From the NCBI GenBank assembly GCA_902812365.1, contig CADDZC010000031.1, positions 1 to 41,009 on the forward strand: DNA of 41,009 nt, in the 5' to 3' direction. Position 1 is the stretch's first letter. Every line of letters begins with the position of its first letter. The DNA comes from Acidobacteriota bacterium (lineage in GTDB: Bacteria > Acidobacteriota > Terriglobia > UBA7540). The notes under the pieces were generated by a model, which saw only the letters and a list, made by a program, of their open reading frames with translations, made no database searches and was not told where the DNA came from. The translations under genes were made by a program, and so were the position numbers. Positions 690-4,792 of this stretch are shown in pieces.

Positions 690-1406
690 CTAATTCATCT
701 TGACGCGTTGGACGCCCTTGGCTGTCCGGAGGCTGAATGCTGAAGCGGGCAGGGCGCGGTTCACCTTAATGTCCTGATAGCGGGCCACGAGATAATCGCC
801 GCTCGGTTCGAAGAACTTCTGCTGGATCGGCAACCATGAGTCTTCGCTGATCCAGACCTGCACCTTGGTCAGTTGCGCGGCGACGCTGGGATCGCGCGGC
901 ACGAGTTCCAGCACGGCGGCCGTCTCGCCGTCCAACTCCTCTTCCCCGGTGAACTTCACTTCGTAGGCTCTCTTCAGGTCAGACACTTCAGAACCGAACC
1001 CCAGCAGCAGGAACTGCTGGACGAGGCCGCTCTGGCGTTCGAGGTTATACACTTGGACGCGATTGATCTTCGGCAGATACACCTCTGCCTTGCTGCCCTT
1101 CAACAGAATGATCTTCGGGTCGGGAGTATCGAAGCGGATCAGAATCTCCGGCTTCTTCGGATTGCGAAGCAGGAATTCGCCGCTCTCCGTGGACTTGTCA
1201 TTCACCAGGATCGTCACCGTGGTGTAATCCAGATGCGCCGTCACCGTCTTCAAATGCTTGGCGGCATCGTTCATGCGAGAAAGAATTTCGGCGAAGTCAG
1301 TCTGGCGGTGATGGCGATGGATGAGGGGGGCAGAGAAGGCGGCCGAGGTGGCCAAGATCGCGACAGCGATCCCAAGCCCCAATCGCGTTCGAAAAACAGA
1401 AGTCAC
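690..1406 (-). CDS. LolA-like periplasmic outer-membrane lipoprotein-sorting protein
   Basis: This is a 238-residue protein with an N-terminal signal peptide: two Arg near the start, a hydrophobic core GIAVAILATSAAF, then a polar segment. There is no lipobox Cys, so a soluble periplasmic product is expected. The mature part reads as the LolA/LolB fold of antiparallel strands forming an open hydrophobic barrel, with phrases such as GEFLLRNPKKPEILIRFDTP, KAEVYLPKINRVQVYNL and a C-terminal YLVARYQDIKVN typical of 'outer membrane lipoprotein-sorting' proteins. It is the last gene of a minus-strand run with an ABC ATPase, a permease and a lipoprotein of the same fold, 49 bases after the preceding small membrane gene. 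Family membership is inferred from pattern. Carriage of lipoproteins is inferred from family and context. Confidence 0.8.
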   Translation of the reverse strand: MTSVFRTRLGLGIAVAILATSAAFSAPLIHRHHRQTDFAEILSRMNDAAKHLKTVTAHLDYTTVTILVNDKSTESGEFLLRNPKKPEILIRFDTPDPKIILLKGSKAEVYLPKINRVQVYNLERQSGLVQQFLLLGFGSEVSDLKRAYEVKFTGEEELDGETAAVLELVPRDPSVAAQLTKVQVWISEDSWLPIQQKFFEPSGDYLVARYQDIKVNRALPASAFSLRTAKGVQRVKMN

Positions 1407-1455
1407 GGTATCTTCGCTTTCCTGGCCATTGGACGCGCGGGCCGAGGCGCGGGTT

Positions 1456-1959
1456 TCACTGCAAGATGACGACTTCGTAGCCGAGCAGGACGTTGTTTTT
1501 GTCGCGGATCGGCCCGACCGACTCGATTGTAAAGGGCTTGGAAAGCCGGCGACGCAGAATCTCCCGCACCGCCTCTTCGGGTGGAAGGGGAGCCATCGAC
1601 TCCACCAGTCGGGCGTCGATCAGATAACGCCAACCTTCCTTGGCGTGCCCGACGTCGACGATACCCTGGCGATGTCGGAGGTCGGTGAGCTCGAGCTGAG
1701 GACGGTCATGAAACCAGGAGCGTGGGGTGAGAAAGATGAAGGCCAGAATAATCGCGCAGATAATATCATATTGCCAACTACCGCGCTCGTACGGCCAGAA
1801 GATAGCCCGATGGAAGAACAGCTTGAGCCTTTCCCCCACCCCGGCCATCGCTCCCACCGGGCGCTCGGCCAGGGCCGGGGAGACACTGGTCGCCCGAAAC
1901 TGCGGAACCTCGCCCATAAGATGCGTTGCCAGATTAAGACGTACGGTGCCGAAAATCAA
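1456..1959 (-). CDS. Small single-pass membrane protein in the Lol-like operon
   Basis: I do not recognise the family. The 167-residue product has one clear membrane segment near residues 65-80 ([13 protein letters not shown]), a basic and polar N-terminal part, and a soluble C-terminal part ending in a strand-like [10 protein letters not shown]. The proposed start is a TTG that overlaps the TGA stop of the ATPase gene (TTGA), which suggests translational coupling. A downstream ATG at residue 15 is the alternative start. It lies between the transporter ATPase and the LolA-like gene, so a role as an accessory membrane component of that transporter is likely but unproven. Confidence 0.65.
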
Positions 1960-2627
1960 CTGCCCACAATCCGGCCGTCGCGCATTCGAACGATGCGGTC
2001 GGCGACCGCAGCCGCCTCGGGGTTGTGGGTGATCATCAGGATGGTTTGGCGAAAGGTGCGATTCAAGGTCCGGAGCATGTTCAGGACGATTTGCGAGTTC
2101 TCGCTGTCGAGATTGCCAGTCGGTTCGTCCGCCAACAGAATCTTAGGCTCGCAAATGATGGCGCGCGCGATCGCCACCCGCTGCTGCTCGCCGCCCGATA
2201 GCGCGTACGGCTTGCGATTGAGCTTATCGGCAATGCCCAGCATCTCGGTCACCATGGCGAAGCGATGCGGATTGAATCCGTTCCCCTGGATGTGCTGAGC
2301 GATGCGGATATTATCGCGCGCCGTGAGCGTCGGCAGTAGGTTGTAACGCTGAAAGACAAAGCCGATCTTGTGGCGGCGAAAGCGCGTCCGTTCGGCATCG
2401 CTCATGGCCATGAAATCATTCCCATCCACCAGCACCCGGCCGCTCGTGGGAGGCGTCAATCCGCCCAAGATGTGGAGCAAGGTTGACTTCCCGCAGCCAG
2501 AAGGACCGACGACCGCGACAAACTCGCCTTCCTGCACCACCAGATCGACCCCACGCAAGGCGTGCACCTCAACCTTGCCAACGCGGTAGACCTTCTTCAA
2601 GTCTTGGGTCGCGATCAGCGGTTCCAC
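1956..2627 (-). CDS. ABC transporter ATPase, LolD/MacB type
   Basis: This ATPase of about 223 residues contains every nucleotide-binding motif: Walker [10 protein letters not shown] at residues 41-49, a Q-loop in [17 protein letters not shown], signature [14 protein letters not shown], Walker [13 protein letters not shown], and a switch His in [11 protein letters not shown]. The phrase [12 protein letters not shown] and the short length are typical of the LolD/FtsE/MacB subfamily that drives type VII (mechanotransmission) ABC systems. A GTG at 2627 preceded by GGACGAGC is chosen as start; an in-frame TTG at 2639 has no well-spaced binding site. It lies just downstream of an FtsX-type permease and upstream of a LolA-like gene. 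The substrate is not shown by the sequence; lipoprotein release is inferred from context. Confidence 0.93.
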
Positions 2628-2712
2628 GCTCGTCCGCAATCCTCTGTCAGTTGACGTCCGGCCTTGGTTTGGAGCGCCGGGCGATCGCCCCGGAACGGCC
2701 GCCGGCGCCCGC

Positions 2713-3813
2713 TTATTCGTAGGCTAGCGCATCCACAGGATCCAGTCGCGCGGCCCGAAACGCCGGGTAGAAAGCCCCGAGCAAGGCACCGGCCAGCGCC
2801 AGCGCGGCAGCCCGCAGTCCCCACAACGGGGTCAAGTCTACCGAGATCGTCGGAAACGAACTTTGGATGACTCGTGCCGCCACGATCGTGCCGACGATCC
2901 CTGCTACGATCCCGACCAAGCACAGCAAGGCGGCCTCCCGGAGGATGACCTGGATAATATAAGCCTTCGAAGCGCCGAGCGACTTCAAGATGCCGATCTC
3001 GCGCGTGCGCTCGGTGATGGTCGTGTACATCGAGAGAAAGATCACCAAGAAGCCGATACAGACGGCCACTGCAATGAGCGCGGTGATGAACGCCGTCAAG
3101 GCCGGCAGATCGTTCGAGGTCACGAGGGTCATGAATTGCTTGATGGAAAGCACCGTGTAGTTCGGGAGCAGTTGGCGCACGCTGGCGATCACACTGTCGG
3201 TGTACGCGGGGTCGACACACTTGACGTAAAAGATTGAGGCTTTGTCGTGCGCTCCGGCCATGTCCTGCGCCGTCGCCAGCGGAATGAACAGCCGCGAGCC
3301 CTTGCCGTGTTCGACAATCCCGACCACTTGGAAATCCTGGTAGACATTCAGCGTCTGACCCAAACGGATATGGTTATCACGAGCGTAAATATCATCCACT
3401 AGAATGTCGTTCGGCCCGCGAAAAGGGCCACCTTGGAGATAGACGAACCCACCGGTCACGCGGTTCCAACTGGGCATATCGATGCCGTAAACGATAATAG
3501 GCACACCGCCGGTCGAATACGACTGAAACAACACCGGCGTCACCGCTAGCACGTGGGGCAACTCCGCCAAGCGGTCGGCGATCTTAACCGGCATGGGAGC
3601 GGAACTGAGGCCGAAGAAGAAAGAGGCGTTAGGTGGCTGGATCATCACATCCGCACCCACCCCTTCCACCCGCTTGGCATACTCGTTAAGCAGGCCGTGA
3701 GTCATGCCGACGACGAGCATCACCATACCCACTTCGATCGCCACCGCCAGGATGCTCACCAGAGTCCGGATGGGACGGTGCAACACGTTCTCGACGATCA
3801 TCTTATTGATCAA
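2713..3813 (-). CDS. ABC transporter permease, FtsX/MacB (LolC/E-like) family
   Basis: The permease has about 366 residues and the architecture of type VII ABC exporters. There is an N-terminal membrane segment ([20 protein letters not shown]), a large periplasmic domain of about 200 residues, then three C-terminal membrane segments. The loop [15 protein letters not shown] between the second and third segments is the hallmark of the FtsX fold, and the protein ends with a conserved DPVDALAYE tail. The chosen start is TTG at 3813, giving M-I-N-K-M-I-V, preceded by GGAAGG at good spacing. ATG at 3801 is the alternative, and longer versions would run into the upstream gene. One permease gene is present, so the transporter is probably a homodimer, unlike the LolC/LolE heterodimer of gammaproteobacteria. 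Confidence 0.9.
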
Positions 3814-3835
3814 ATAAGCCTTCCAGCGACAAACG

Positions 3836-4792
3836 CTAACCGCCGCCTTCCTTCGCGGGCGACGAAATGTCAATCAACTGCTCCCCGGGCGGCTTGACGA
3901 GTTGAAAGCGGTCCGCGGCAATGGGTTGGTTAAATGTCGCTTTTTCAATGACGATCCCCAGACTGTAGTCCTCTTGGGGACGGCTGACTTCAATGTGGGC
4001 GGGGTAATGGACGCCTTGGAAGTCCCGATCATCGGAATATTTTACATCCTCGACCACTGCGCCTCGGGGTCCATATAGTTCCACGCGTTCAATCTCCAGC
4101 GTCGTGGCATTAAACCATACTGTGCGCTTGAGGCCCAATCGGTTTCCTTGTTCGGATCGAAGAATGCCCACGACGTCATAATAACGCCCTCCTTCTGGCC
4201 GCTGCTCCATGTAGTAATAGTCGCGAGCTGGATCCACGGCGTCCAAGAGGAGCGCTTCGAGAAGGTGCTGGGGACGGAAATTCTCAAACGCATTGCGCGC
4301 AGGCCGCTCCACGTCCGCCGTGCCCACAATGAATTTCTGCCTCGGAGGAATCGAGAGCTTGAAACTCTGGCCGTCAGAGACCATGTCAAAGAGGGTAGTG
4401 CGCACCACAGGAGCCTGGCCGATCATGCGCAACTTGTCGGGCGCGTCGAGCAGGATAAATGCCTTGACGTCGTGGTACTCCTTGATGACCCCGGAATAGG
4501 CAGATCCGACGACGGGCTCAAGCCGGACGGTTGCGGTCAAAGTGCGCACTGCTTTGCTTTGGGCGTTAATCCGGGCAATCAGATCACCGGCCGACACCGC
4601 GACGGGCGGCGGTACGGCAGCCGGCAGGGCCCGCCTCGTCCGCCGGACGGCGCAGCCGCCGACCAGCGGCAGCAGTCCTGCGAGCACGAGAGTGAGAACC
4701 GGCCTTAATGCTTGCTGCTGATGGGGTTCGGATTGTACTCCCGTGATCCACTCTAACATTCGGCCGATGGAGGTGTCAAACGGCACAGTCAT
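3836..4792 (-). CDS. LolA/LolB-fold lipoprotein (DUF4292-like)
   Basis: The frame encodes up to 318 residues. A hydrophobic stretch PVLTLVLAGLLPLVGG is followed by Cys, forming a recognisable lipobox (V-G-G-C), so the mature protein should be lipid-anchored. The body resembles lipoproteins of the LolA/LolB superfamily, with strand repeats (LDAPDKLRMIGQAPVVRTTL, FDMVSDGQSFKLSIPPRQKF, RTVWFNATTLEIERVELYG). The start is uncertain. ATG at 4792 gives a 45-residue lead before the Cys and ATG at 4759 gives about 36; neither has a good binding site. It is transcribed after pyrD and just before the permease, with 22 bases between stop and permease start. An anchored LolA-fold protein beside a soluble one recalls the LolB/LolA pair. 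Confidence 0.75.
   Translation of the reverse strand: MTVPFDTSIGRMLEWITGVQSEPHQQQALRPVLTLVLAGLLPLVGGCAVRRTRRALPAAVPPPVAVSAGDLIARINAQSKAVRTLTATVRLEPVVGSAYSGVIKEYHDVKAFILLDAPDKLRMIGQAPVVRTTLFDMVSDGQSFKLSIPPRQKFIVGTADVERPARNAFENFRPQHLLEALLLDAVDPARDYYYMEQRPEGGRYYDVVGILRSEQGNRLGLKRTVWFNATTLEIERVELYGPRGAVVEDVKYSDDRDFQGVHYPAHIEVSRPQEDYSLGIVIEKATFNQPIAADRFQLVKPPGEQLIDISSPAKEGGG

Follow-up and report, generated by a model that had tools for sequence, protein, structure and literature searches.

A conserved five-gene module of Lol-like parts with a hookless permease in Acidobacteriota, a candidate second envelope shuttle

The window analysed here, a stretch of 41,009 nucleotides, is a contig from the draft genome of an Acidobacteriota bacterium, which measures 3.5 Mb at 96.7% completeness. 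Close to one end of it five adjacent minus-strand genes encode a lipoprotein (LPP), a permease (PERM), an ABC ATPase (ATP), a small membrane protein (TMP) and a LolA-like carrier (Table 1), and all five open reading frames were recovered at the place and in the order reported by the initial annotation. Upstream of the module lie pyrD and a pyrK-type gene, both assigned by Pfam, with a tRNA-Pro (49-125) downstream, and no biosynthetic gene adjoining the module was found in the ORF list or by Pfam analysis of seven proteins. TMP had been listed as a 167-aa ORF with a TTG start (1959-1456); a small membrane protein with one helix is indeed present, but many homologues start at an ATG that aligns with the ATG at 1917, such that the gene probably spans 1917-1456 and encodes 153 residues, not 167.

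Table 1. Genes of the module and the evidence for each assignment.
Gene	Product	Position	Strand	Evidence
LPP	LolA/LolB-like-fold lipoprotein, 318 aa	3836..4792	minus	signal peptide, Cys47, profiles
PERM	type VII FtsX/MacB-type permease, single periplasmic domain	2713..3873	minus	Pfam, alignments, model
ATP	LolD-like ABC ATPase	1956..2639	minus	Pfam, NCBIfam
TMP	one-helix membrane protein, 153 aa	1456..1917	minus	homologue starts, model
LolA-like	soluble carrier of the periplasm, GTG start, 238 aa	690..1406	minus	PF17131, PF03548

The lipobox originally seen in LPP is borne out, with the signal peptide ending at Cys47 and this cysteine kept in 19/19 aligned rows, the window's included, while Asp directly follows it in 0/19. 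For both LPP and the LolA-like carrier the fold was judged from profiles. Eleven of the 19 LPP members matched PF17131 (LolA_like) and five matched DUF4292 at E<=0.01, with the window's own LPP scoring 17.3 bits in the Pfam search (cut-off 30) and 13.6 bits against LolB1_Flavo (cut-off 50), under the cut-off in each case. The LPP profile matched that of the module LolA with a probability of 96 (E 2e-9), and LPP found LolA-superfamily entries in the PDB at E 4e-4 and weaker. LPP is proposed to be an acceptor, presumably in the outer membrane. The carrier passes two Pfam LolA models, PF17131 (39.6 bits, cut-off 30) and PF03548 (32.5 bits, cut-off 23.6), in keeping with the soluble LolA-fold protein first described for this set, and scores 43.9 bits against TIGR00547, under the cut-off of 112. 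The accompanying statement that LolB is limited to some proteobacteria fits the available part of one study (PMC11784454), but the available part of another describes LolB-like proteins in Bacteroidota (PMC11885536).

The module is not the only Lol-type set in this genome. A LolF-like permease at C53, adjoined by a LolD-like ATPase, reaches 338 bits with TIGR02212, a model to which the module permease matches at 32, and a LolA at C6 scores 75.6 bits for PF03548 against 33.1 for the module LolA. A separate Lol set elsewhere in the genome, which the initial annotation had named as evidence against its own reading, is thus present. In a panel of 40 genomes hand-picked by permease state, mostly one genome per family, LolF was found (E<=1e-60) in 24/26 genomes with the module permease and in 13/14 without. 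In the same panel MlaD was about equally frequent with (20/26) and without (12/14) the module and occurs in the window's genome, and the module was rejected as a replacement for Mla.

The best NCBIfam model for ATP was LolD_lipo_ex (220.1 bits, under the cut-off of 307.75), and the protein is 45% identical to the ATPase adjoining the genome's own LolF. PERM carries FtsX (68.9 bits) and MacB_PCD (66.8 bits) domains, both over the Pfam cut-off, while against the lolCE model TIGR02212 it scores 50.8 bits as a protein and 32.1 in the genome scan; missing the cut-off of 362.45 says little taken singly, because the genome's own LolF also misses it. By sequence profile PERM scores 115 bits with MacB, 54 with LolF and 40 with LolE, such that the FtsX-type permease of the initial annotation stands as one of FtsX/MacB type, corrected in being nearer by sequence to MacB than to LolF or LolE. 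In fold, the structure predicted for PERM by AlphaFold (mean pLDDT 81.6) nonetheless most resembles chain E of LolCDE entries (350 residues, Z 25.1, rmsd 9.5), followed by further type VII permeases that include 5xu1 (23.3), HrtB (22.8) and MacB (21.9). The presence of a single permease gene, pointed out at first, is not in itself unusual, since LolF homodimers are common according to the available parts of two studies (PMC10865981; PMC11784454).

The LolA-binding hook corresponds to residues 167-179 of LolC and is essential to LolA recruitment in E. coli, as stated in the available part of PMC10865981. When aligned against this stretch, 26/26 module-type permeases lacked the hook, having 0-1 residues at its position, in an alignment with rows hand-chosen from fetched loci, some of them close relatives. 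These 26 comprise the window's permease, 15 others from module or split loci and 10 that are orphan, fused or second copies. In the same alignment 13 residues stand at the hook in the genome's own LolF, which can be aligned over almost its full length, hook region included, with solved LolF and LolC. A hookless permease had likewise been named in advance as speaking against the module being a Lol pathway, and with the hook missing and a second Lol set present the proposal that the module sorts lipoproteins in this way is not supported. A narrower version, in which a second sorter handles a subset of lipoproteins with non-hook docking beside the general LolF-LolD-LolA route, would account for an ATPase closest to LolD, a permease model matching chain E of a LolCDE entry (Z 25), a carrier passing PF03548 and parts that correspond to the Lol classes, lipoprotein acceptor included. 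Against this, the feature essential in E. coli (PMC10865981, available part) is absent throughout the 26 permeases, a separate LolF set exists, and the links of TMP and PERM to lipid enzymes described below would not be expected, such that we regard a second lipoprotein sorter as rather unlikely.

The five-gene arrangement is widely kept. TMP is present in 37/39 genomes of the source genome's family, its own included, and among the family loci fetched at length (n=19) the full order was found in 15, with three of the other four ending at a contig end and one (L058, genome G010) having no LolA gene after TMP. When the TMP alignment was used to scan the 84,980 species of the GTDB genome collection, 205 relatives were obtained, of which the best 80 were examined; 79 of these 80 are named as Acidobacteriota groups, among them Terriglobia, Solibacter/Bryobacteraceae, Blastocatellia and Chloracidobacterium, the exception being a Betaproteobacterium (L152). 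The five genes were complete and ordered in 49 of the best 80 of 205, while 17/80 had TMP-LolA without LPP, PERM or ATP alongside (two of the 17 near a contig end) and two (L154, L156) had LPP-ATP-TMP-LolA with the permease absent in between. Ten of the remaining 12 were cut by contig ends, one (L078) had no LolA after TMP, and in one (L139) the ATPase lay farther off than the counting rule allowed. The search for conservation that the initial annotation had proposed therefore shows the order to be kept (49/80 relatives, 15/19 family loci), and a lack of conservation in relatives, which it had named as speaking against its own reading, does not hold.

Where the locus is broken up, the parts are often still present. 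Among ten genomes in which the locus is split or partial, seven have a permease of module type elsewhere at 336-502 bits (next best 102), as part of LPP-PERM-ATP in G435, G436, G437 and G439, as PERM-ATP in G440, and as unlinked permeases in G134 (two) and G337 (three). The other three (G434, G438, G441) have TMP-LolA and no permease orthologue at >=100 bits, which counts against one system. Across 396 genomes of the phylum, which include related and hence non-independent genomes and many distant TMP hits covering the anchor only, the permease (E<=1e-60) was found in 145, the TMP motif in 190 and both in 143, with the permease-positive G313 and G329 giving no TMP match. Given such a sample, the Fisher value calculated for this association cannot be read as a true probability. 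The notion that the module is present in every one of the 190 genomes with TMP was discarded, the permease being missing from 47 of them at E<=1e-60. In the hand-picked panel LPP followed the permease exactly (26/26 with, 0/14 without), while the module LolA profile matched in 26/26 permease-bearing genomes at 91-238 bits and in 7/14 of the others at 69-106 bits. Gene order is able to persist without shared function, but the retention of the parts together after separation makes it very improbable that these are neighbours without a joint function, and both the architecture of the module and its unity are well supported.

TMP belongs to a conserved protein family that is absent from Pfam and NCBIfam as searched here, with no family detected in Pfam (E<=1) or NCBIfam (E<=0.1) and no PDB sequence match at E<=5. 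It has one predicted helix, with Lys+Arg richer before than after it in 18/25 members, equal in three and reversed in four, which is consistent with a cytoplasmic N-terminus. The most conserved part is the membrane anchor, around YERGSWQYD and ILAFIFLTP. In the structural model (mean pLDDT 80.8) residues 86-152 form a mostly well-predicted beta-beta-alpha-beta-beta domain, proposed to be periplasmic. Attempts to assign TMP to a known fold were set aside, the best Foldseek match having an E of 0.029, with none at E<=0.001, and VIA-align giving a best Z of 5.9 (59 residues, rmsd 2.7) to ribosomal S24e, a match that ties with other small alpha-beta domains, mostly ribosomal, and is not informative. 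Likewise, Pfam matches among 25 members (SecD-TM1 in two, eight other families in one each, best E 0.0045) were taken as chance, the window's TMP matching none of them.

TMP is proposed as a docking subunit because PERM is without the LolC-type hook. With TMP positions listed for all but three of the 26 permease-bearing panel genomes, TMP was adjacent to LolA in 22/23 among the matches listed (the best LolA of the exception, G170, being on another contig), compared with 15/20 for PERM and 18/23 for LPP among the matches listed, where three of the five misses for LPP (G169, G280, G178) may be assembly breaks. That TMP lies beside the carrier more often than beside PERM is the further ground for considering that it may dock the carrier in the hook's place and so replace the hook as the docking site.

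Clues to the cargo come from relatives. The TMP motif in the absence of the module permease was followed in 15 of 47 genomes, and in 13/15 it lies either at the C-terminus of a gene of CDP-alcohol phosphatidyltransferase type or in a small ORF at that gene's end, the other two (L196, L197) having it in small free ORFs; the phosphatidyltransferase identity was assigned as PF01066 by Pfam in L161 and L164 and by tblastn with L161 in the others. A second module-type permease with an extra N-terminal part was seen in three genomes picked for long reading frames, this part being PF03706 (LPG_synthase_TM) in L180 and L182, both tested by Pfam, with a similar N-terminus by eye in L181. Directly after LolA at least 11/80 loci have a gene similar to HGSNAT_cat, which also has a sub-threshold acyltransferase match, and at least 15/80 a radical SAM gene, at least 26/80 together, counts that are lower bounds as gene calling missed some loci; Pfam was run on one gene of each kind. 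By association in these relatives, the cargo is suggested to be a membrane lipid, more likely than bulk lipoproteins. Counting against a lipid link, the window's own neighbours are pyrD/pyrK and a tRNA, the PF03706 fusion sits on a second permease paralogue, and where the TMP-type anchor occurs on a phosphatidyltransferase it may serve as a general tag for the membrane.

The genes that follow LolA in relatives could also point to a carrier dedicated to a single special hydrophobic product, such as a pigment, glycolipid or lipid-linked metabolite, resembling LolA2-LolB2 of Bacteroidota flexirubin operons, for which a transport role is only proposed by the authors in the available part of PMC11885536. 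Specialised LolA/LolB pairs have thus been suggested, though untried experimentally there, and the acyltransferase-like (at least 11/80) or radical SAM (at least 15/80) genes after LolA would suit such a role. However, the genes upstream are pyrD and pyrK, no biosynthetic gene lies beside the window's module, and the presence of TMP in 37/39 family genomes suggests a core rather than an accessory product, making a special-product carrier improbable.

Our preferred reading is that the module is a second, dedicated Lol-like envelope shuttle, hookless, with docking by TMP and a lipid-leaning cargo, to which we give roughly even odds (about 0.5). We infer a complex working outward, in which TMP would dock the carrier at the transporter, the LolA-fold carrier would take the cargo, perhaps a lipid, across the periplasm, and LPP, anchored in the outer membrane, would receive it from the carrier. 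Its most specific form, an ATP-driven inner-to-outer-membrane route in Acidobacteriota for phospholipid or a phospholipid-derived lipid, assembled from Lol-like components (a transporter of MacB/LolF type lacking the hook, TMP as a bitopic docking subunit with an anchor that phosphatidyltransferases also carry, a lipid carrier of LolA fold and an acceptor resembling LolB), is put forward tentatively, at somewhat under even odds.

No description of the five-gene module was found in the titles and abstract starts among the matches listed from open-licence PMC papers, where one soil paper looks unrelated judging by its entry, and the relation of the module to known systems can be set out as follows. 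In the LptB2FG-LptC-LptA system an ABC transporter works with a periplasmic carrier and with a membrane partner that has one helix. The likeness to Lpt would be a functional analogy only, with a role for TMP comparable to that of LptC; the module permease and carrier match other Pfam families, and TMP gave no match to a known family. MacB-type exporters share the MacB_PCD and FtsX domains, and MacB, as aligned here, likewise has nothing inserted where the hook would be; in the module, however, the ATPase is a separate gene and not fused, and a LolA-fold carrier takes the place of an adaptor, Pfam analysis of seven proteins (the five genes and pyrD/pyrK) detecting no MacA-type adaptor or TolC-type channel. 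With LolA2-LolB2, as presented in the available part of PMC11885536, the module shares a gene-linked, perhaps specialised LolA-LolB-like pair, which there lies in a pigment operon, whereas here an ABC transporter and TMP go with the pair, and nearly all members of the family have it. With the Lol pathway the module shares the type VII permease fold, the LolD-like ATPase, the LolA-fold carrier and a lipoprotein of probable LolA/LolB fold, differing in its hookless permease, nearer to MacB by sequence, in the additional TMP and in coexisting with a separate LolF-LolD and LolA. A hookless, gene-linked transporter-carrier-acceptor set standing beside the standard Lol system would allow the redirection of Lol parts to another cargo to be tested.

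The gene for TMP, the one-helix membrane protein, is followed in one relative (L166) by two tandem LolA-like reading frames. The lipoprotein-permease-ATPase-TMP order is kept in L078 and L058 (the latter from genome G010), with no LolA-like gene found after TMP, and the carrier of these loci may be sited elsewhere. In L079 and 14 further loci, the LolA-like gene is directly followed by a radical SAM gene (family c7) in the same orientation. The full module is also present in L152, a record titled Betaproteobacteria, which shares some neighbour gene clusters with Acidobacteriota gp2 contigs; this genome is probably misnamed or mis-binned.

FtsX/MacB-type permeases at three loci carry an extra N-terminal part, identified as PF03706 (LPG_synthase_TM) in both permeases tested (L180 and L182), with no module-type ATPase listed around any of the three in the 8.5-9 kb fetched. 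At L160, L161, L163, L164 and L187-L195, all from Acidobacteriota genomes that lack the module permease, a CDP-alcohol phosphatidyltransferase-type gene has a TMP-type membrane anchor either fused to it or directly 3′ of it.

Features at the relatives' loci
Feature	Locus	Position	Strand
Radical SAM gene, family c7	L079	11646-12683	same as LolA-like gene
LolA-like reading frames	L166	4054-4929 and 5019-5804	
N-terminally extended permease	L180	2451-4643	
N-terminally extended permease	L181	2574-4772	
N-terminally extended permease	L182	2832-4979	
Phosphatidyltransferase + TMP-type anchor	L160, L161, L163, L164, L187-L195
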